From assembly GCA_028554645.1 (NCBI GenBank), contig JAQOOI010000047.1, positions 186,001-250,000 on the forward strand: a stretch of 64,000 nt of DNA, read 5' to 3'. The notes below the pieces were generated by a model. The model had not been told where the DNA came from and did no database searches. It saw only the letters and a program-made list of their open reading frames with translations. Positions 5,101-15,032 of the stretch are shown one piece after another. This DNA comes from Omphalotus guepiniiformis (Eukaryota > Basidiomycota > Agaricomycetes > Agaricales > Omphalotaceae). Positions within the stretch are counted from its first letter, which is position 1, and each line of letters starts with the position of its first letter. The position numbers were made by a program, and so were the translations under genes.

Positions 5101-5949
5101 AGCTCTCTGGGAAGTTATACTTTCTCTAACACTCTGTCTTTGACTTCTGTTAGAGTGGACAGTATTATTTGCTGATGGAGGAGAACCATGTGAGCTGGGA
5201 TGTGGTTGCACACTTCTGGCATTTGTTGTTGATGCATGGGAATTGGAATACATGCTTCCCAACACATTTCTTAAGCCTTCCCTATAGCTTTGAAAACCTG
5301 TGTCCATACTGGCTTCCTGCCAATGCTGAGTTCTAGGTGTAGAGTGTGCAATAAGATGTTGCATGGTTGGTGGTTCAAGCTCCTCATCCTCCTCCTCGTT
5401 CTCAGATTCAGAGTCACTAACAGCCTGTAATGCAGGCATGTCTGCATGCTCATCTTCATCATCTGCTATGTTTCCTGTATCACCAGCAGCTTCATGACTA
5501 GAAGAGCTTGAAACATTGATAGCTGCTTGACTGGGGAATTGAGACTGATCTTGATAGGGTTCTTGCAGCAAATTATCAATGGTATTGGGACCAGATGCTA
5601 GTTCAGTCATGCCTTGTTCTCCATACAATTCAGCTCTCAGTATCTCAGTCTGAAGAGTGGATCTAGGTCTGACTGGGGAAATAGGAGTGAGTTCTTGGAA
5701 GGTGAGACCTGTAGTTCTGTCTCTTCTTCTCCTTGGTCTTCTAACTGCTACTCCTGGTGGAATTTGTTGTGGTGTACTCCCTAAGGTTTGTCCTGGAGTT
5801 TCAAATGGAGTAAAACTCTGGGATTGCCTATTGACTGGTCCTTCAGAGACAGATCTTCTGAGATTGGTGCTGTCTGGGGTGAGGACATAGTGTCTAGGAG
5901 AAGTGGCCTGTTGTTGGTTGGTCTGAGTGTGGGTTGTTTGAGTAGACAT
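2140..5949 (-). CDS. gag: Gypsy-A Gag, 1269 aa, with CCHC zinc knuckle
   Basis: The start is the ATG at 5947-5949, the first AUG of the predicted RNA; none occurs in the ~650-nt leader. The N-terminal two thirds is low-complexity and rich in S, T, Q, P and N. It contains an acidic stretch (about residues 165-195), a collagen-like run of GGP/GPQ triplets (about 3410-3465) and a tandem RDG/GRD repeat (about 3285-3350). The conserved gag core around residues 900-1100 contains WSTFVDSCENMF and FADFLVRFED. It is followed by a zinc knuckle CMRCGKPGHFGREC (CX2CX4HX4C) near 2430. Gag is expected to form the particle and bind RNA. It is much longer than most Ty3/gypsy Gags because of the disordered N-terminus. 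Stop TGA is at 2140-2142. Confidence 0.93.
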   Translation of the reverse strand: MSTQTTHTQTNQQQATSPRHYVLTPDSTNLRRSVSEGPVNRQSQSFTPFETPGQTLGSTPQQIPPGVAVRRPRRRRDRTTGLTFQELTPISPVRPRSTLQTEILRAELYGEQGMTELASGPNTIDNLLQEPYQDQSQFPSQAAINVSSSSSHEAAGDTGNIADDEDEHADMPALQAVSDSESENEEEDEELEPPTMQHLIAHSTPRTQHWQEASMDTGFQSYREGLRNVLGSMYSNSHASTTNARSVQPHPSSHGSPPSANNTVHSNRSQRQSVRESITSQRASTGSHTTNDHEQERSVSATQLAGLAIASRAFLISIGVEDDPLRGDYGWIRMMRRLAQTNLSDLAEHIAEAVQIPYNARELTTLYHFSERPMILHLLNMQDPSSRASSPRSNTPHSSRTTLLSEANDQPHSTSPRSYQQYPEMDIFQWTLNSANMNGNWQVVDDRSVRSSQANLQGYTRVPTHTPVQSPQHAVNWPSTNGRVQQIINTTPSTVRSTVPQAVQGRIATPWHPSTQPIMVSSGSDSTTVVGIPNVPLYRNTEYNIPDPVPPYPGEPPAPTYEQIPASRISNPSSNRASNHVETQSSNVVFQELPQENIQSVNYIDDTEVFVHRSQQEDVEANEPETISRPNRVPGYRNDEVPTESSVQESSGEQRRNRTQTWREELESRIQRGQTRIEPQPNNSPPHHQEEPSRPQAPVQLGTSNQPHSMQVPTTRNRIPSGMERDAPPHLDGRREDQNTSRQYRQNAAGPSRNQEVSHSPGSSRISELRRTQQYPYTPNKGKTPVRNAGGPPDDPNDPGHSHYDEDDSDSDDEHNQSSRGEGPSHWTTPGGPGGPGGPRGPGGPQGPNDPPSGDESDDGYNHRRNGRNGRDGRDGRDGRDGRDGRDGRNQEDAEDRRQREELTRALNREAKLDINKPKEFSGESRAEWSTFVDSCENMFAAKPTIYASESSQITFAASYFTGPALRYYNNLMRKRRNGNIIAAVNTWNEFLKMFSKMFGLHDETLYSQSKLDTVYQKFKEAFADFLVRFEDVANKTNYNDPALRFRLLRQIRSDLRNRLTNNGKIPDSYDEVVERLLEIDTAREALNDMGLGDNTYGRNWNNQQTDTNQRVVQTRFVSNNTYRLRNANTPNVVSGNAAETGETQPQSNFPPRISQEEYERRMRERLCMRCGKPGHFGRECRTYPMPNSNQNTNHNGYNAGSNNAANGRAVFVDNEEEEKDGVYLEIEGEDGIIQIEDSIFQEGAKEEEYEDVDNSGNLQETQDGRSHI
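2176..2182 (-). promoter_or_regulatory. -1 ribosomal frameshift heptamer G GGA AAC between Gypsy-A gag and pol
   Basis: In the gag frame the minus strand reads TCG GGA AAC TTG, so GGGAAAC sits exactly as X XXY YYZ. After a -1 slip the next codons are CTT GCA GGA GAC, which is the open pol frame, while gag stops 11 codons later at 2142. A 5-bp stem GACTC/GAGTC lies just downstream. GGGAAAC is a well-known viral slippery sequence. The placement is read directly; activity is inferred. Confidence 0.85.
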
Positions 5950-5969
5950 CTCAACTGTAACTTAGTGGG

Positions 5970-5981
5970 AGTCTAGTTATT
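5970..5981 (-). promoter_or_regulatory. Gypsy-A primer-binding site, complementary to the element's own RNA 5' end
   Basis: One base after the 5' LTR end (5983) the minus strand reads AATAACTAGACT. Its perfect 12-nt complement AGTCTAGTTATT lies in the same strand at 6600-6589, where a transcript is expected to begin about 25-30 nt below the TATA box at 6624-6631. There is no TGG at the LTR junction, so a tRNA primer is unlikely. This is the arrangement of Tf1-type self-priming elements. Confidence 0.85.
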
Positions 5982-6167
5982 ATGTTAGGGAACAGAAGGT
6001 AAGGGTTAGTTACTCTGATCCACAGTATGGGGGTTGGGGGCTAAGTTGTATTAATTGAGAGTCTACTCAAAGAACACAATGTAGAGATGAGCTGAAGTGA
6101 TAATCTATATCACAGAGAAAGGAAATGTAAGGAGTGATGTCTCAGATATCACTAGAAAGGTAGGTTT

Positions 6168-6521
6168 CACTTGGAAATGCTTCAAGTGAGAACAGGAAAT
6201 TTGATTACTGGAAATGCTTTAGTAACCAAGGGAATCTAGATACTTCAAGTAGTCTAAGGATGGAATGAACAACTGGAAATGCTTCAGTTATTCAAAGAGA
6301 AAGCCTGGAAATGCTTCAGACAATCAAGGGAAATACTGCTGGAAATGCTTCAGCAATACTTAAGAAAAGACACTGGAAATGCTTCAATGCCTTGGAGAAT
6401 ATCTGGAAATGCTTCAGATAATCAAAGGAAATACTGCTGGAAATGCTTCAGCAATACTTAGGGAAAGACACTGGAAATGCTTCAATGCCTTAGAGGTTCA
6501 GTCACTGGGAATGCTTCAGTA
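6168..6521 (-). repeat. Array of ten hairpins with invariant loop AAGCAUUUC in the Gypsy-A leader
   Basis: Ten copies of a 15-nt core (minus-strand sense CTGAAGCATTTCCAG, small variants) lie at 6168-6188, 6205-6225, 6271-6289, 6303-6321, 6337-6355, 6371-6389, 6401-6419, 6435-6453, 6469-6487 and 6503-6521. In each, the flanks pair with each other although the flank sequence differs between copies. Examples are CACTTG/CAAGTG, AACTG/CAGTT, TGCTG/CAGCA and ATCTG/CAGAT. Several stems reach 9-11 bp using G-U pairs that exist only in the element-sense RNA. The array starts about 80 nt after the predicted RNA start. Confidence 0.85.
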
Positions 6522-6588
6522 GACTAGAGAGAGTAAGAAGTACTTGTATTGACAAGACAGGTTACAAAGTAGAGGTTCACAAGAAAAC

Positions 6589-6600
6589 AATAACTAGACT
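6589..6600 (-). promoter_or_regulatory. Predicted Gypsy-A RNA start and self-primer segment
   Basis: The sense sequence AGTCTAGTTATT begins 24-31 nt downstream of the TATA box and is exactly complementary to the primer-binding site at 5970-5981. In Tf1 the first 11 nt of the mRNA anneal in this way and are cut to prime reverse transcription. The start at 6600 is inferred from these two facts. Confidence 0.75.
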
Positions 6601-6623
6601 AAGGTACACTAAGTTGGGTGGGG

Positions 6624-6631
6624 TTTATATA
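6624..6631 (-). promoter_or_regulatory. TATA box of the Gypsy-A LTR promoter
   Basis: The minus strand reads GTATATAAACC here. It lies between the TGASTCA cluster in U3 and the predicted RNA start at 6600, the expected place for the element promoter. Confidence 0.7.
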
Positions 6632-6681
6632 CACAATTCTGAGTACAGATATAAAAGGAAAGTATCTACAATGAGGCTGCA

Positions 6682-6948
6682 TGAGTCAGTTTGACTAGAA
6701 ATGACTGTGAACATGAGTCATTCTGACTAGACATGACTCTTGAACATGAGTCACATTGACTAGGCATGATTCAAGTCACTATGAGTCTATAAGGTGACTG
6801 TATATGACTCAAGCTTCCATCAGAACTGCAGGATGACTTGTTATGACTCATGTGCCATGGATGCTGCAGCATGACTGGTTATGACTCAAACTGCAAGCTG
6901 GAGAGGATACAGAGATCATGGGACTGAAGGGAGGCTGTACATGACTCA
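6682..6948. promoter_or_regulatory. Cluster of seven TGASTCA (Gcn4/AP-1 type) sites in Gypsy-A U3
   Basis: Perfect TGA(C/G)TCA palindromes occur at 6682-6688, 6714-6720, 6747-6753, 6805-6811, 6844-6850, 6882-6888 and 6942-6948. Near matches occur at 6734, 6767 and 6782. All lie upstream of the TATA box with respect to the minus-strand element. TGASTCA is the binding consensus of fungal Gcn4/CPC1 and AP-1-like bZIP factors. Confidence 0.75.
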
Positions 6949-7107
6949 GATCAATTATGTAGTGCATCATGTATGACCACAGAGTGATTGGTTGACATAT
7001 AGGTCTTTGGTTGATACCCAAAAATTAAAATTTTCTGTCTTTCTTGTGTATGCCATTTATCACTTATTGATCTGTGGCTCTGTACCTGTATGTACTGACT
7101 CCTAACA

Positions 7108-9235
7108 GAACCTTGCCTGGTACGTGCTTCAGTTTAAAATGAAACATCATGATCGACTCTATCCACCTATTTATCGCGGCGTTTGGCATTTGATCAGGAT
7201 GCTCTAACATGCCTTTAATGTACTTCGCGTCAGTTTCGATTATAAGGTTGCGAATACCAAACAACCAATACTGGCACGCTCGTAACGCGCGATACAAACC
7301 AAACAACTCCCGTTTCGGCTGTGAAAACCTAGCTTCGCGATCACTTAGTGTAATCGAACCGAATCTGGAGTAGAACCTTCGTCGCGGATTCTCTGGATCC
7401 ACTTGACAAATATAGAACCCAACCGCTTTCCACGACGTATCTACTGCCAATATAACAGGGTCTTCCACATCATACTTTAGTGGTCGTAATGCCTTGCTAT
7501 TCTTTACTGCCTCTTTCAACTTTGCCAACGCGTCACTTTGCTCTTGTCGCCATTCGAACGGAATATCTTTACGCGTAAATCGGGTTAAAGGCTCCGCGAT
7601 CTTTGCATAGTCTTTGACGAACATTCTTACTAGTCCCGCGGTGCCTAAGAATGGTCTTATATCCTTCTCTTCTAGGATATTCTCAGGTCCACCCCAGTTG
7701 GTAATAGTTTTCGCTCGTTCCGGGTCGATCTCTCTTCCTTCCCGTGTACACCTATGTCCGACCACGGTAATCTCGCTTTTACACAATACAGCTTTGGGGC
7801 CTGAGAAAGTCCCACCACAGTACTTCATTCTTTGAATGACTCTATTCATATTGGTGAAATGTTCCCAAATAAACCTCCGTATCCCATCATTACCAGGAAT
7901 GGTCTCGTACGTACCATCTTCACTTTGATAAGTCGTTTCAGGACCGCGTACAGGAACATCATCGATGTATGGTTGCGTAAACTCCGGGATCTCTTCTTGT
8001 AATATGTGTGTTACATCATCGTGGAAGATTGGTACTGAATTCGTCCATCCCATCGGTAGTGTTACTAACCTCAGGGCTCCAAAGGGAGTCTGGAATGTAG
8101 TTAAGTCCCGCGATGCTATTGCCAACTCTCTTTCATCATAGCCAACATTTAAATCTAGAATTCCTCCACAAGCTCTACCACAGAATTTCTCCGCGAGCTC
8201 TTCAGTAGCAGGCGGTATACCAGAATGTGCTATTGTTACCGCGTTCAACGGTTCCAAACTATGTACTAGTCGAATACTCTTTCCGTCTTTCTTTAACACC
8301 GCGAACCACTTCGATCGGTAAGACGAGTTCGATGGTTCGTAAACTCCCGCGTCAATCTTTCGTCTAACTGCCGCGCATACTTCATTAAAAATACCAGGGG
8401 GAATAGGAATGTTCCTCTCAACCCAAGGTGTATGAGGTATCACGGGCATCTCTACTGAAGGAAAGAAATCTGTTCTGAATCTTCCGCGTTCACTGTCGTC
8501 CCACGCGAACCCTTTCTCTTGCTGCATCATCATATGATGCATCAACTTCCGTTCTTCTGGCCAAAGGAATTCTTCCTTATGTATCTCGTCTATTATCTCT
8601 TTACGTTCCTGAGTATACCTACCAGTCGGCGTGAATTCTGGAGGATTAGGCGAAAGCTGCGGCATATCAGCCAATGGATCTCCTTTAATCTCTCTTATGA
8701 TTCTAAACTTCGATGGTAAATCTCCTAGAACAGGGCGTGTTTTCAACGCGACAGGTTTGTATTTCTTTCCTGCCAAGATACTAATTGGTTTGTAACGTTC
8801 CTTCCACAGCCGCGACGCGTGCCTCCTCACTTGATCTTTCATATCAGGGGATACATCAAGCATCGCGATGCTCCTTACATCAAACAGGGGAATTTGCTGT
8901 AACTCTTCTACGCCGTCTTCTAGCTCTACTTCTTGCACCGTGAAATTTGCTTGAGAGTACGCGGCAGGATTTTGCGCTCCATACACCGAACTCAAATAGG
9001 ATCTCAATACGGGTTTCGTCGTTTCTTTATCACTTTTTAGATCAATATACTTCTCCGCGGCAGATAAGTATAGATCGCGTAACTCTCGCTTCTCAAACTT
9101 TGATTTTTGCTCCTCGTTTATATCTGCAAATACTACATCACTTATGCCAATGGGAATACCTTCGTCATTTAATTCAAAAACCACCGCGGCTTCTCCTTGA
9201 TCTGGGATCAATTCCTCGAAGCTGCTGAAAAACCC
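7108..9235 (-). pseudogene. pol: Gypsy-B copy 1 pol, truncated by Gypsy-A insertion
   Basis: The frame is entered by a -1 slip at 9229-9235 (first codon in the old frame would be TTG, not ATG). It reads the N-terminal region, RT with the QPYIDDVPV active site near 7965, and RNase H to the residues VPGKV, where Gypsy-A starts at 7107. The last 14 codons of the open frame (to 7064) are Gypsy-A LTR sequence. Compared with the second copy, about 610 C-terminal residues, including integrase, are separated off. It is nearly identical in sequence to 21363-23466. Confidence 0.9.
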
Positions 9236-10434
9236 TGAGTCTGTTCCTTGTCTTTGCTTATAGGTACAGAACCTTTCCCTCTCTCATAGGTAGGTACAAC
9301 AGCTCGCTTCTTAGTGTTAGGGTCCTGAATAACGAGGTCCTGCGTTCCATCTGCATGATTATCCACTAAACTCTCCGTGATCGTGTCAAAAGGCCGTCCC
9401 AGTAGCAATTCATATGCGGGGTCTCGAATTACATGTACTTGTAAGTACACGGTGATTCCGCCTAGTAAGAATGGTACATTACGCGCCAATCCCAAAGACT
9501 TCTCAACACCCTTGTTAGCCGATTGCATAAAGATTACTATGTCCGGGTCCCACGATAAACCTGCTTCGCGAGCTCTTTTCTCCGATGTAGAGATAATCTG
9601 TGAACCCGAGTCTAGTAGACTTTCGATCTTCGCAGTACCATTTACCAAAGGATACACGCATCGAAGCGACTCTGAATCTCTTGCCACGTAGATCTGAATT
9701 GGGTTATCTTTGCTTCCCAGGCTTTCCACGTACTGTTCAACTGGATCGCTAATCACAACCGCTCCTGCTGGAAGATCTCCTTCCGCCTGTTTCAGAACAA
9801 AAACTTCCGCGGTGACATTAAGGTCAGCTAACGCGACTGTATTTGCTGTTACGTGAACCTCTCCTACATTTTCCTCGCTAAAAGGTAATAGGGGGCTTTT
9901 GGCTAGGATCTCTCTCAAACCTCCCGCGGTCTCTTCAGGCTTCAATTTGACTCTTGACTTGATCGTTCCTCTGAGTGAAATTTCTGATTCCACTACTGTT
10001 TCTTCCGCGTCAGGATGTTTAGTTAACGGAATAACAGGAGACTCCGCGGCCTTCTCATTCCTTGTCTTCCAAATTATCCCCCTCGGGTTCTCTAACCGCT
10101 CTTTCTGAGCTTTCAGTTTCTCTTGCTCAGTTGGCGAATACGACACATCAGGTACGTTCGCGTAAGGAACCTCTGGTACGCGGCTCTTCTTCACTACTGT
10201 AGGTAGCGGAGGCATCTCGACACCATCGAATCTCAAATGTTTTTCCCTCTTGACCAACTCCTTATACTTATCTTTCTCTAGGCTCGCGTCCTTCTCAGGT
10301 TCCGCGTCCTTTTCTTTCCACAACCGTCGTTCATTACCCTTGTTTTCAGTATCATTCTCAGGTGCCGCGACCCTAACAGGATTTTTCTCTTTTGTAGGGG
10401 CCTGGCTTTCCATCCTCGAACTTACCGAAAACCC
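9208..10434 (-). CDS. pro: Gypsy-B copy 1 protease frame (Pro), about 400 aa
   Basis: The frame is open from the gag slippery site (10428-10434) to TGA at 9208-9210 and also has an ATG at 10411-10413, 8 nt after the gag stop. It could therefore be made by -1 frameshifting (preferred) or by reinitiation. The charged N-terminal half is followed by a retropepsin-like domain with SLLDSGSQIIS (catalytic DSG) and a C-terminal ELLLGRPFD. It would cleave the Gag-Pro-Pol polyprotein. A second heptamer at 9229-9235 leads into pol. It is intact, unlike copy 2. Confidence 0.87.
   Translation of the reverse strand, partial: GFSVSSRMESQAPTKEKNPVRVAAPENDTENKGNERRLWKEKDAEPEKDASLEKDKYKELVKREKHLRFDGVEMPPLPTVVKKSRVPEVPYANVPDVSYSPTEQEKLKAQKERLENPRGIIWKTRNEKAAESPVIPLTKHPDAEETVVESEISLRGTIKSRVKLKPEETAGGLREILAKSPLLPFSEENVGEVHVTANTVALADLNVTAEVFVLKQAEGDLPAGAVVISDPVEQYVESLGSKDNPIQIYVARDSESLRCVYPLVNGTAKIESLLDSGSQIISTSEKRAREAGLSWDPDIVIFMQSANKGVEKSLGLARNVPFLLGGITVYLQVHVIRDPAYELLLGRPFDTITESLVDNHADGTQDLVIQDPNTKKRAVVPTYERGKGSVPISKDKEQTQGFSAASRN
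9229..9235 (-). promoter_or_regulatory. -1 frameshift heptamer G GGT TTT, pro to pol, copy 1
   Basis: In the protease frame the minus strand reads CAG GGT TTT TCA. GGGTTTT is in X XXY YYZ register, and a -1 slip enters the pol frame seven codons before the protease stop at 9208-9210. A 6-bp hairpin TTGATC-CCA-GATCAA follows at 9197-9211, with an outer CTTC/GAAG stem beginning about 7 nt after the heptamer. Confidence 0.78.
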
Positions 10435-12185: not shown

Positions 12186-12254
12186 CCGCGACTATAACTC
12201 TTCGGTCTCGTACGAAACCTAAAACACTTTACTTAGTTTATTAATCAGAAACCC

Positions 12255-12270
12255 CTCGCGGTGGGCTCCA
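12255..12270 (-). promoter_or_regulatory. Gypsy-B primer-binding site (tRNA type), copy 1
   Basis: Two bases after the LTR end (12273) the minus strand reads TGGAGCCCACCGCGAG. It begins with the TGG expected for pairing with a tRNA CCA end. The matching tRNA would end CUCGCGGUGGGCUCCA; I could not identify it. Gypsy-A next door primes differently. Confidence 0.65.
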
Positions 12271-12272
12271 GA

Positions 12273-13511
12273 TGATGTGCTTGGTATGGGGTATGAATGA
12301 GAAGAAGTGCTAACTACTCGAATGAATCTATCAAGCACTCAAAACACACACACAACACACAAAGACTTTTAAGTTCGTGGGGTTTGGGGGACTAACAAAC
12401 TCTGTGAAGCGAATAAGGTTGTTGTAAGAGGAACGCGGAGACACAGTCAAAACCGACGCGGCACAGATAACTCTCTGCTACACACCACTCAAACGAACTA
12501 ACGCGTAACTTTAACAAATCACCGCGACCAGTGACTACAAACGATACAACAACCAGACGATTGTTGGGAGATGCCAGACGACTTCTCACTTAGTGGAGTT
12601 GGGTATAGGAGGATTTCAGAACTGCCAGACGACGAGTTCAACGAGTGACCAGACGATCCACTCTTATTCGCACTACACACACAGGCTCCGCGGTACCAGA
12701 CGATCCCGCTTGTAAACACTTAGGCACACTGACTTATGAACTAACGCGACGGTTAACACTTTAAAACTTCTAATCACTCAGAGGGACTTAAGCTTTTCCA
12801 CACACAAATGCTATTAGCTCTATGGGGGGGCTCGGGAACCTGTCCTTCCTTGCCCAGGTTCTATTTCTTATATACAGTATTTCTATTTACATAGTACAAA
12901 CAAATGTCGCGATACTTGACAGTTATGAGATATATGGTGCATATGGTGCACCGCGTAGGGTAGGGATGAAGTATAGTACGCGGTAACAGGGTATCCTATA
13001 TCGGTTTATAATCTTGCCGCTTTTAGAAAGTATCGCGGTAGTTCGCTAACACTGTGTCTCCTTACGTGTTCTACTTCCGCGTCGTCGGAAGTACTTCGTG
13101 TTACATCGTACGTCTAGACCCTTCTGTGGCTCAACAGTGGTCATTAGATATGACTAGTGCACGGAGCTACTGCTACCTGATTTCTAAGTCTGGCCTTCTG
13201 AGTAGTGCCGCGGTACTTCGTTACCTACGCGTTGGTTTATACAGTATTGGGGCCATCAAGTTATACACGTCGGACCTTAGAACAAGTGCCGCGACGCTTT
13301 ACTTGAGTGTATACTTAGGTAATACCTACACTGAGAAGACCCATTTAGTGCCGTTCTACAGTCTTGTACACCTTTGTACACATATACTAGTGGTTGAATG
13401 TGCGTAATACACCGCGTAACTTAGGACTATACAGTGTACTTAGTAGGTTTGTACTGGAGTGATCAATCCCGCGAGGCCAAAAATGGTAGTGGTATTCCTG
13501 CGGTCGTATCA
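12273..13511 (-). repeat. Gypsy-B LTR 1, 1239 bp (5' LTR of copy 1)
   Basis: It runs on the minus strand from TGATACG at 13511 to CACATCA at 12273, with TGAT/ATCA ends. It is an inverted near-copy of LTR 2 (13767-15005) and LTR 3 (27424-28665), with a few substitutions. It contains a TATATAA element (near 12870 on the minus strand), many CGCG tetranucleotides and a five-hairpin leader array at 12546-12713. It borders PKS sequence at 13512. The matching target duplication is outside the window. Confidence 0.92.
12546..12713 (-). repeat. Five-hairpin array with loop UCGUCUGG, LTR 1
   Basis: TCGTCTGG on the minus strand occurs at 12696-12703, 12649-12656, 12625-12632, 12574-12581 and 12553-12560. 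Each copy is flanked by sequences that pair with each other but differ between copies. It is the same array as in LTR 2, where the stems are described. Confidence 0.7.
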
Positions 13512-13766
13512 CCGAGATGATGATCTCCTTATTGGCAGTGTTAAAGGAAACGTTGGGTAAGTCTTTGTACCACCTGGTCCGTTATTCACGCTGGGACCTC
13601 ATCAAACTAACATCTCTGTATCAGTCATATGGAGATCACATCATTCTTGGCTTCTCTCTCAAAGGTTCTCTCAATCTTCAAACAAAGTGAGTTCCTCCTC
13701 AGGCCAATTTGAAGCGCCGTAACCCAACCACCCACTGGGACGAGCTCCGTCTTCGTGTGCCCACGT
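13512..13766 (+). pseudogene. PKS ketosynthase fragment stranded between two retrotransposons
   Basis: Reading + strand, exon sequence DDDLLIGSVKGNVG ends at 13556. An intron (13557-13624, GT..AG) follows, then GHMEITSFLASLSKVLSIF, the conserved region around a KS active-site histidine. A missing base near 13690-13697 shifts the frame before NLKRRNPTTHWDELRLRVPT. The fragment stops at the TSD ACGT (13763-13766) and the reading frame resumes at 28666 with SPTTLVPRAK. It is the same gene as 28666-36402. The upstream KS must lie left of Gypsy-B copy 1, outside the window. Confidence 0.85.
13763..13766. repeat. Left target-site duplication ACGT of the 14.9-kb element
   Basis: ACGT directly precedes LTR 2 and is repeated directly after LTR 3 at 28666-28669. 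Removing the element and one copy restores continuous KS coding sequence (..RVPT-SPTTLV..), which confirms the insertion boundaries. Confidence 0.85.
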
Positions 13767-14403
13767 TGATACGACCGCGGGAATACCACTACCATTTTCG
13801 GCCTCGCGGGATTGATCACTCCAGTACAAACCTACTAAGTACACTGTATAGTCCTAAGTTCCGCGGTGTATTACGCACATTCAACCACTAGTATATGTGT
13901 ACAAAGGTGTACAAGACTGTAGAACGGCACTAAATGGGTCTTCTCAGTGTAGGTATTACCTAAGTATGCACTCAAGTAAAGTGTCGCGGCACTTGTTCTA
14001 AGGTCCGACGTGTATAACTTGATGGCCCCAATACTGTATAAACCAACGCGTAGGTAACGAGGTACCGCGGCACTACTCAGAAGGCCAGACTTAGAAACCA
14101 GGTAGCAGTAGCTCCGTGCACTAGTCATATCTAATGACCACTGTTGAGCCACAGAAGGGTCTAGACGTACGATGTAACACGAAGTACTTCCGACGACGCG
14201 GAAGTAGAACACGTAAGGAGACACAGCGTTAGCGAACTACCGCGATACTTTCTAAAAGCGGCAAGATTATAACCCGATATAGGATACCCTGTTACCGCGT
14301 ACTACACTTCATCCCTACCTTACGCGGTGCACCATATGCACCATATATCTCATAACTGTCAAGTATCGCGACATTTGTTTGTACTATGTAAATAGAGATA
14401 CTG

Positions 14404-14410
14404 TATATAA
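14404..14410 (+). promoter_or_regulatory. TATA box of Gypsy-B LTR 2
   Basis: The sequence TATATAA lies about 30 bp before the start of the ATG-free leader. The same element is present in LTR 1 and LTR 3 (28064-28070). Confidence 0.6.
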
Positions 14411-14563
14411 GAAATAGAACCTGGGCAAGGAAGGACAGGTTCCCGAGCCCCCCATAGAGCTAATAGCATTTGTGTGTGGAAAAGCTTAAGTCCCTCTGAG
14501 TGATTAGAAGTTTTAAAGTGTTAACCGTCGCGTTAGTTCATAAGTCAGTGTGCCTAAGTGTTT

Positions 14564-14730
14564 ACAAGCGGGATCGTCTGGTACCGCGGAGCCTGTGTGT
14601 GTAGTGCGAATAAGAGTGGATCGTCTGGTCACTCGTTGAACTCGTCGTCTGGCAGTTCTGAAATCCTCCTATACCCAACTCCACTAAGTGAGAAGTCGTC
14701 TGGCATCTCCCAACAATCGTCTGGTTGTTG
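14564..14730 (+). repeat. Five-hairpin array with invariant loop UCGUCUGG, LTR 2
   Basis: TCGTCTGG occurs at 14574-14581, 14621-14628, 14645-14652, 14696-14703 and 14717-14724. Flanks pair across the loop. They are GCGGGA/TACCGC (one mismatch), GAGTGGA/TCACTC (one bulge), GAACTCG/CAGTTC (one bulge), GAGAAG/CATCTC (one mismatch) and CAACAA/TTGTTG (perfect). Stem sequences differ between copies while the 8-nt loop does not. The array lies in the predicted 5' leader. Confidence 0.72.
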
Positions 14731-15007
14731 TATCGTTTGTAGTCACTGGTCGCGGTGATTTGTTAAAGTTACGCGTTAGTTTGTTTGAGTGGTGTGTAGC
14801 ATAGAGTTATCTGTGCCGCGTCGGTTTTGACTGTGTCTCCGCGTTCCTCTTACAACAACCTTATTCGCTTCACAGAGTTTGTTAGTCCCCCAAACCCCAC
14901 GAACTTAAAAGTCTTTGTGTGTTGTGTGTGTGTTTTGAGTGCTTGATAGATTCATTCGAGTTAGTTAGCACTTCTTCTCATTCATACCCCATACCAAGCA
15001 CATCATC

Positions 15008-15023
15008 TGGAGCCCACCGCGAG
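15008..15023 (+). promoter_or_regulatory. Primer-binding site after LTR 2
   Basis: TGGAGCCCACCGCGAG lies two bases after the LTR, identical to the site after LTR 1. Only about 20 bases of gag-side sequence follow before the join to the cargo A promoter (GAGGGG then TATATAACC). A matching minus-strand copy before gag (26511-26530) means the site is duplicated in inverted orientation. Confidence 0.7.
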
Positions 15024-15025
15024 GG

Positions 15026-15032
15026 GTATATA
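15026..15032 (+). promoter_or_regulatory. TATA box of cargo gene A
   Basis: TATATAA lies 59 bp before the ATG at 15091, a spacing that fits a short 5' UTR. The same promoter is repeated in inverted orientation at about 27036-27042, pointing at gag. Confidence 0.6.

Follow-up and report, generated by a model that had tools for sequence, protein, structure and literature searches.

Self-priming is described for the retrotransposon Tf1, whose primer-binding site (PBS) and RNA 5' end are complementary over 11 nt (PMC7175516), and the available portions of the literature also implicate it in Tj1 and put it forward for Tcn1 of Cryptococcus (PMC7175516, PMC4600332). In a different setting, the accessible text on satellite tobacco necrosis virus describes capsid assembly that prefers one loop sequence and is indifferent to the sequence of the stem, and in which RNAs with several copies of the hairpin assemble better (PMC3593212). 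The element described here, found in a 64-kb stretch of DNA that we refer to as the window (G000:C53:186001-250000), is like Tf1, Tj1 and Tcn1 in being a Ty3 element (here one with a Tf2-like SH3 domain and a chromodomain) that has no TGG at the PBS, and like Tf1 in having a PBS that complements the RNA 5' end, over 12 nt to the predicted end here (11 nt in Tf1, in the text available; PMC7175516). It is unlike Tj1 in its dimensions, these being ~13.5 kb for the copy on contig C19 versus 5.0 kb, and 1125 bp versus 244 bp for the LTR (PMC4600332, as far as accessible), and unlike both Tf1 and Tj1 in carrying an array of hairpins in its leader, a feature that goes unmentioned for those elements in the available parts of the sources. 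Beyond the original prediction of such an array, the analysis adds that it lies inside the LTR and that the element, judged by its sequence, looks self-primed.

Host Element and Leader

The 5' LTR (TGTTAGGAG...CCTAACA, 1125 bp, 5983-7107 on the minus strand, as are all features of the element given below) was delimited by comparison of the LTR pair (L010/L009), their termini and their flanks, and it contains the array. The window copy is nested in another Ty3 pol and flanked by the 5-bp target duplication GGTTC; an interrupted ORF at 7064-9283 gives an RNase H match. Its 3' LTR, 99.8% identical to the 5' LTR, is 29.7 kb away, beyond the window. The LTR ends, TGTTAGG...AACA, have the TG...CA form of Ty3 chromoviruses, and 5-bp target duplications were found for the five pairs read (ACCTG, GGAAG, CCACT, ATCAC and GGTTC). 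The gag ORF (Retrotrans_gag, PF03732; 2140-5949) begins with the first AUG of the leader, at 5949, and Gag has, besides this domain, a CCHC motif that we read from its sequence. Because the window copy's own pol is beyond the window, the order of Pol domains was taken from the copy on contig C19, which has identical LTRs, a length of ~13.5 kb, an ORF1 for a Gag of 1270 aa and an ORF2 for a Pol of 1318 aa. ORF2 matched RVT_1, RT_RNaseH and Integrase_H2C2 above the cutoff, while rve (29.5 of 32.6 bits) and Asp_protease_2 (22.2 of 24.3) fell short of the cutoff in an order that fits, giving PR-RT-RNaseH-integrase, the order of Ty3 chromoviruses. The integrase is followed by SH3_Tf2-1 (63.6 bits) and Chromo (54.4 bits), and by this domain content the host of the array is a chromodomain Ty3 element.

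A search of the 42.5-Mb genome (80 contigs) with the LTR leader gave matches at 38 places, 12 of them at 94-100% identity, one at 86%, 18 at 80-82% and seven as shorter fragments. The 31 matches at 80-100% fall into two subfamilies plus one intermediate, and six pairs of matches are 11.5-12.5 kb apart. For Pol residues 380-780, 7961 proteins were scored, and among the best 120 of these the highest identity was 78% (P0016, JGI), with 72% for Lentinula edodes, 67% for Termitomyces and 62% for Trametes. A protein search with Gag residues 900-1240, in which there were 2775 candidates, had no hit at E <= 0.001.

Several other features of these elements were observed. Of the 12 TGASTCA sites in the 64-kb window, a total at the level of chance (12 versus 11.9), seven are in the U3 of the window LTR (6682-6948); we take them to be Gcn4/AP-1-like. 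The U3 of the second subfamily has a different repeated motif, GACTAGTCATTT. In L011, L015, L018, L028 and L030, the G-run of the polypurine tract is separated from the 3' LTR by five bases (GGGGGGTGTAC and then TGTTAGG), which is more than usual. At G000:C43:106910-132450 three LTRs are spaced at ~12.56 kb, as if tandem copies shared an LTR, and at 12251-15027 of the window near-perfect inverted repeats (690 nt, 98%; 514 and 66 nt, 100%) adjoin a second Ty3 element.

The placement of the hairpins in a retrotransposon leader was borne out, as the array is downstream of a TATA box (TATATAAA, 6624-6631) and the RNA 5' end is predicted 31 nt below it. This start is a prediction from the TATA distance, which is 31 nt in L010 and in L026, a member of the second subfamily; in both, the sequence after the 5' LTR, TAATAACTAGACT, complements AGTCTAGTTATT at that distance below TATATAAA. 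The proposed RNA 5' end and self-primer in the window copy is AGUCUAGUUAUU (6589-6600), the 12-nt complement of the bases directly after the LTR, and the putative PBS is UAAUAACUAGACU (5970-5982), which adjoins the LTR. Given the predicted start, the Tf1-type complementarity of UAAUAACUAGACU and AGUCUAGUUAUU is present in both subfamilies. No TGG for a tRNA PBS was found in the 32 nt after the 5' LTR. A second block, AACTTAGTG (6607-6615), upstream of the proposed 5' end, has its complement CACUAAGUU at 5959-5967 in the region after the LTR, and this 9-nt pair (AACTTAGTG/CACTAAGTT) adjoins the self-primer and the PBS. In 2000 base-shuffled leaders the longest match averaged 6.3 nt and reached 12 nt at least once; taken alone, a 12-nt self-primer match is thus rare, not impossible, by chance.

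When the 650-nt leader was folded without constraints, it was closed by the self-primer/PBS helix with the hairpins hanging inside. Of the 14 loci given for the calculation, three were identical to others, and in ten of the 11 distinct leaders the mean probability of this helix was 0.93-0.96 (0.96 in the window copy); the exception was L033, with a point change at this site and a probability of 0.67. The element thus looks like a self-primed element of the Tf1 type, and since its 5' end and PBS would pair and close a loop, the array would be inside that loop. Another many-copy Ty3 family (L048:1668-1993; Gag ~23% identical) also has a structured AUG-free leader and may perhaps be self-primed, with AGTTTTAAAT at a distance of 36 nt downstream of TATATAAA and ATTTAAAACT located two bases past the suggested LTR end; support is weaker in that family because the primer/PBS helix is missing from its predicted best fold.

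Structure of the Hairpin Array

The array (6168-6521) comprises ten hairpins with the loop AAGCAUUUC, or AAGCAUUCC in one of them, which confirms the claim of ten hairpins sharing one 9-nt loop: nine exact matches to AAGCATTTC are on the minus strand at 6174-6482, and one variant, AAGCATTCC, is at 6508-6516. A tenth exact match in the window is outside the array, at 250-258, and the total of ten compares with 0.54 expected for the whole window and was reached in none of 100 shuffles. Numbered along the RNA and identified from sequence and fold unless noted otherwise, the hairpins are the following: hairpin 1 (6503-6521), which has the loop AAGCAUUCC and four Watson-Crick pairs plus an outer U-G; hairpin 2 (6465-6491; AAGGCAUUG/CAGUGUCUU); hairpin 3 (6429-6459; AAGUAUUGCUG/CAGCAGUAUUU); hairpin 4 (6400-6420; UAUCUG/CAGAUA); hairpins 5 (6367-6393) and 6 (6331-6361), duplicates of hairpins 2 and 3, respectively, as seen from the direct repeat and the fold; hairpin 7 (6303-6321; GUCUG/CAGGC); hairpin 8 (6266-6294; UGAAUAACUG/CAGUUGUUCA); hairpin 10 (6201-6229; UUGGUUACUA/CAGUAAUCAA), which has a closing A.C mismatch; and hairpin 11 (6167-6189; UCACUUG/CAAGUGA). 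Comparison of copies identified TACTTGAAGTA (6241-6251) as the remnant of hairpin 9, whose loop is deleted in the window copy and which is complete (UACUUG/CAAGUA) in other copies of the same subfamily.

These assignments led us to revise the stems originally listed. All of them are present, but the stem quoted for 6201-6229 omitted the A.C closing mismatch (TTGGTTACTA/CAGTAATCAA). The count of ten hairpins stands, but because a 98-nt direct repeat (6297-6394 and 6395-6492, 92% identical) accounts for two pairs of duplicate hairpins there are eight distinct stems among the ten, and to these is added the loop-less eleventh hairpin at 6241-6251. Folded singly, the eight distinct hairpins have energies of -2.0 to -10.5 kcal/mol, some of the shorter ones being weak (-2.0 to -3.6 kcal/mol). 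In ten first-subfamily linkers (87 nt), pyrimidines make up 79% and G 8%, a composition that would leave these linkers unpaired. Rfam covariance models gave no match up to E = 1 in window positions 5900-7200.

Pairing, Conservation and Strand Asymmetry

The original prediction was that the stems change in concert from hairpin to hairpin, and this was upheld by a null in which 3' arms were swapped among the hairpins and pairs were counted at stem positions 4-8. The ten window hairpins form 44 of 50 pairs, compared to 24.5 +- 4.0 after exchange, so that swapping the arms destroys the pairing, and none of 20,000 exchanges reached 44. With the eight distinct hairpins the result was 34 of 40 versus 19.5 +- 3.5 (P <= 1e-4), and with 44 distinct hairpins over 37 loci, a set that was pre-filtered for pairing and so leans upward, it was 290 of 352 versus 213 +- 7.6. 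Among sixteen distinct 19-mers, which were hand-picked as hairpins, pairing was seen in 79 of 80 cells, and in 19 cells both sides departed from the commonest pair, versus 5.0 in shuffles. The expected excess of pairing over shuffled sequence was likewise seen, as all ten hairpins formed in an unconstrained fold of the 391-nt sense RNA (MFE -95.4) with a z of -4.55 that was equalled in none of 100 shuffles. The antisense strand of the window array gave an MFE of -88.5 and a z of -0.37, with 33 of 100 shuffles equally good.

Variation among copies was assessed by aligning 18 distinct leaders drawn from 37 loci (L009-L045). There were 19 distinct candidates, of which L034 was dropped for having other sequence in its 5' part; the other 18 of the 37 loci, for the most part LTR partners or fragments, were left out. 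To count toward diversity a column had to contain at least ten rows, so hairpins 2 and 3, which are missing from the second subfamily, are outside these figures. Mean diversity was 0.035 in the loops (72 columns), 0.037 in the stems (129) and 0.195 in the linkers (64), the linkers being about five times more variable than the stems and loops; in the sequence flanking the array it was 0.100 upstream and 0.075 downstream. The number of hairpins varies between the subfamilies. Nine to eleven were counted in seven of ten loci compared, while three or four were present in the other three, which are fragments or distant copies. In the best folds, seven or more hairpins bearing such a loop were present in 14 of the 18 leaders and three to five in the other four. 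The stems of hairpins 5 and 8 are retained in the second subfamily, where folding of L026 predicts them with a one-nt bulge. A pattern allowing variant loops matched 31 places, versus 3 for the backward control. Single variant-loop matches outside the known LTR copies were noted on contigs C18, C60, C63, C68 and C78.

The expectation of covariation across related copies was not supported in its double, compensatory form. With stem pairs defined by copy L013, all 22 stem-pair variants in the 18 leaders are one-sided, nine leaving the pair intact and 13 breaking it (each of the latter in at most three of the 18 rows), and there is no double compensatory change between orthologous hairpins at the stem pairs tested. 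Four stem pairs differ between the subfamilies (6 or 7 rows); two are kept via G-U, and the other two, both outermost, pair in the first subfamily alone. It is between the hairpins of one array, not between orthologous hairpins, that the compensatory signal is strong.

The comparison of strands was extended to twelve arrays chosen from the 37 loci, which are related copies and not independent. The sense z ranged from -2.44 to -5.27, with none of 60 shuffles as good in any array, and was below the antisense z in all twelve. To that extent the earlier emphasis on the sense strand holds, but the gap is narrow in the second subfamily, where it is also the antisense that has the lower raw energy and where the whole leader of L026 gave a z of -4.63 (raw energy -125.5) for sense and -3.09 (-146.8) for antisense, and the antisense raw energy was the lower in eight of the twelve arrays because the purine-rich strand folds more easily. 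A sense bias of G-U pairs, also claimed originally, is present in the window stems (11 G-U versus 2 A-C, one-sided P 0.011) and weak once duplicates are counted once (7 versus 2, P 0.09); over all 56 collected stems, which include decayed copies and chance matches, it was 40 versus 28. Taken alone, the G-U bias is only suggestive of selection at the RNA level. Several tests do point to selection on RNA structure in the array, namely the arm-exchange null, the low variability of stems and loops and the lower sense z in 12 of 12 arrays, and on these that part of the original prediction is retained, without the compensatory changes across copies that it had anticipated.

Proposed Role of the Array and Alternatives

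A constant loop on stems that are free to change suggests recognition of the loop, with the stem there to present it, and the repeated loop motif on variable stems is what is found in packaging-signal arrays. We propose that the hairpins are redundant docking sites for a protein, most likely Gag in packaging, a reading to which we give a little short of an even chance. The loop and its closing base pairs alone would be read in sequence, the stem merely presenting the loop, and a protein would bind loop by loop, the many copies providing avidity and redundancy. Redundancy is suggested by the presence of up to eleven copies, one of which has been lost in copies with identical LTRs. The array of the C19 copy (L012/L011) is 100% identical to that of the window and hence also without hairpin 9, which argues in the same direction. 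The array is also present in two other copies with two identical LTRs (L027/L028 and L029/L030), all three copies being young for that reason. As a guess, Gag is the most economical partner, and we speculate that the element's own Gag gathers on the array and so selects full-length RNA for particle assembly. One folded leader would then carry the assembly signal and the self-primer together. The complete model, a self-primed element with a tandem Gag-assembly array inside the primer-helix loop and a hairpin number that is tunable through duplications and losses as only the loop is read, is offered more tentatively, and we think it possible although rather unlikely in its entirety. Loop-loop pairing with the element's own RNA was considered and rejected, as there was one 8-mer complement in the 8001 nt of L046 and none in the leader or in L047.

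The next candidate after Gag is a host RNA-binding protein that reads the loops and controls export, stability or translation instead of packaging, which we regard as unlikely, though worth keeping in view. We know of no host factor that targets this loop, and there was no Rfam match. Conversely, no AUG was found in any of 13 leaders of 585-661 nt (11 distinct, L010 included), where 6.8-8.5 would be expected and none of 500 shuffles of each was free of AUG, as if the leader were scanned by ribosomes. Single hairpins of -2.0 to -10.5 kcal/mol are weak enough for scanning. An AUG-free leader with weak hairpins, as modeled here, would suit cap-dependent scanning and speaks against the array as a strong translation block. 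Regulators that read constant loops on small stems are also known, such as ANTAR, in the text accessible to us (PMC3369931).

It is improbable, in our estimation, that the array is instead a folding scaffold, a chain of hairpins compacting ~600 nt to bring the 5' end and the PBS together for self-priming. The array does occupy much of the 552-628 nt between self-primer and PBS, and in Tf1 RNA structures have been reported, in the portion of the source available, to allow the pairing of 5' end and PBS (PMC7175516). However, the predicted helix had the same probability when the array was shuffled (40 of 40), when the interior was shuffled (20 of 20) or when the array was left out, and since the helix keeps its probability without the array, no link between array and priming is seen in silico, with the qualification that large loops are handled crudely in models of this kind. 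Nor would a scaffold require one invariant sequence in its loops. A compaction role is possible, but these controls do not favor it.

We consider it very unlikely that the units, which are inverted repeats, are palindromic binding sites at the DNA level, for example an enhancer downstream of the start, even with the cluster of seven TGASTCA motifs at 6682-6948 in the U3 of the same LTR. A palindromic site would conserve its arms, and here it is the center that is constant and the arms that vary between units; in addition, relative to its shuffles the sense strand lies lower than the antisense strand in all twelve arrays, by a small margin in the second subfamily, and G-U exceeds A-C by 11 to 2 (7 to 2 de-duplicated). 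Least credible of all is a mutational by-product without function, in which unit duplication and template-switch repair perfected imperfect palindromes, for although a 98-nt unit is duplicated and the hairpin number varies between subfamilies, the linkers are about five times more variable than the stems and loops, and such repair would not preserve the loop and would yield perfect stems and not G-U pairs.

To our knowledge, it is little understood how fungal LTR retrotransposons select their own RNA for assembly, and the docking array proposed here is a directly testable candidate signal for that choice. As the array would lie in the proposed self-priming loop, it would connect the selection of RNA with the formation of the primer, two steps that are usually studied apart.

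Comparison with Known Systems

The array was also sought outside the family. Two spaced loops searched against viral contigs gave four matches, and the three that were read, L051, L053 and L054, have a loop-like motif whose flanks do not pair. A hairpin model gave nothing at E <= 0.5 in the loci of distant Gag relatives in the same genome, L048, which includes the leader, and L049/L050 (Gag 36% identical), in which no leader is reached. Of four scans of viral and genome contigs for relatives by Pol, three gave no locus and one gave L055, in which 1.4 kb precede the pol match. L055 (CADCWO010000091.1) is filed as a Synechococcales cyanobacterium, and its Pol is 52% identical to that of the window element's family; it is probably a eukaryotic contaminant. 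A literature search, covering titles and the starts of abstracts with subscription papers mostly outside its coverage, yielded no retrotransposon leader with an invariant loop or tandem hairpins.

A similar logic is known from other systems, for which we refer to the available parts of the sources. The GACG tetraloop hairpins of alpha- and gammaretroviruses are few in number. They resemble the array in sharing one loop sequence, and a part in packaging and possibly dimerisation is reported for them (PMC516450), but their loop has four nt, whereas here a nine-nt loop is present on nine to eleven hairpins. The UUYYGU hexaloops of coronavirus SL5, a proposed packaging signal, are likewise a repeated loop near the RNA 5' end (PMC10927501), but there the hexaloops are parts of a single domain, the virus is a plus-strand RNA virus, and the loop is another. 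ANTAR targets are tandem small hairpins recognised through their conserved terminal loops (PMC3369931), but there are two of them and they act in bacterial antitermination. Satellite tobacco necrosis virus resembles the array in its many hairpins, which share one loop motif while the stem is of indifferent sequence (PMC3593212). There, up to 30 potential sites are spread genome-wide, whereas here the hairpins are clustered in the leader and binding is putative. If the array does serve for docking, it would independently exemplify the many-sites principle known from small RNA viruses.
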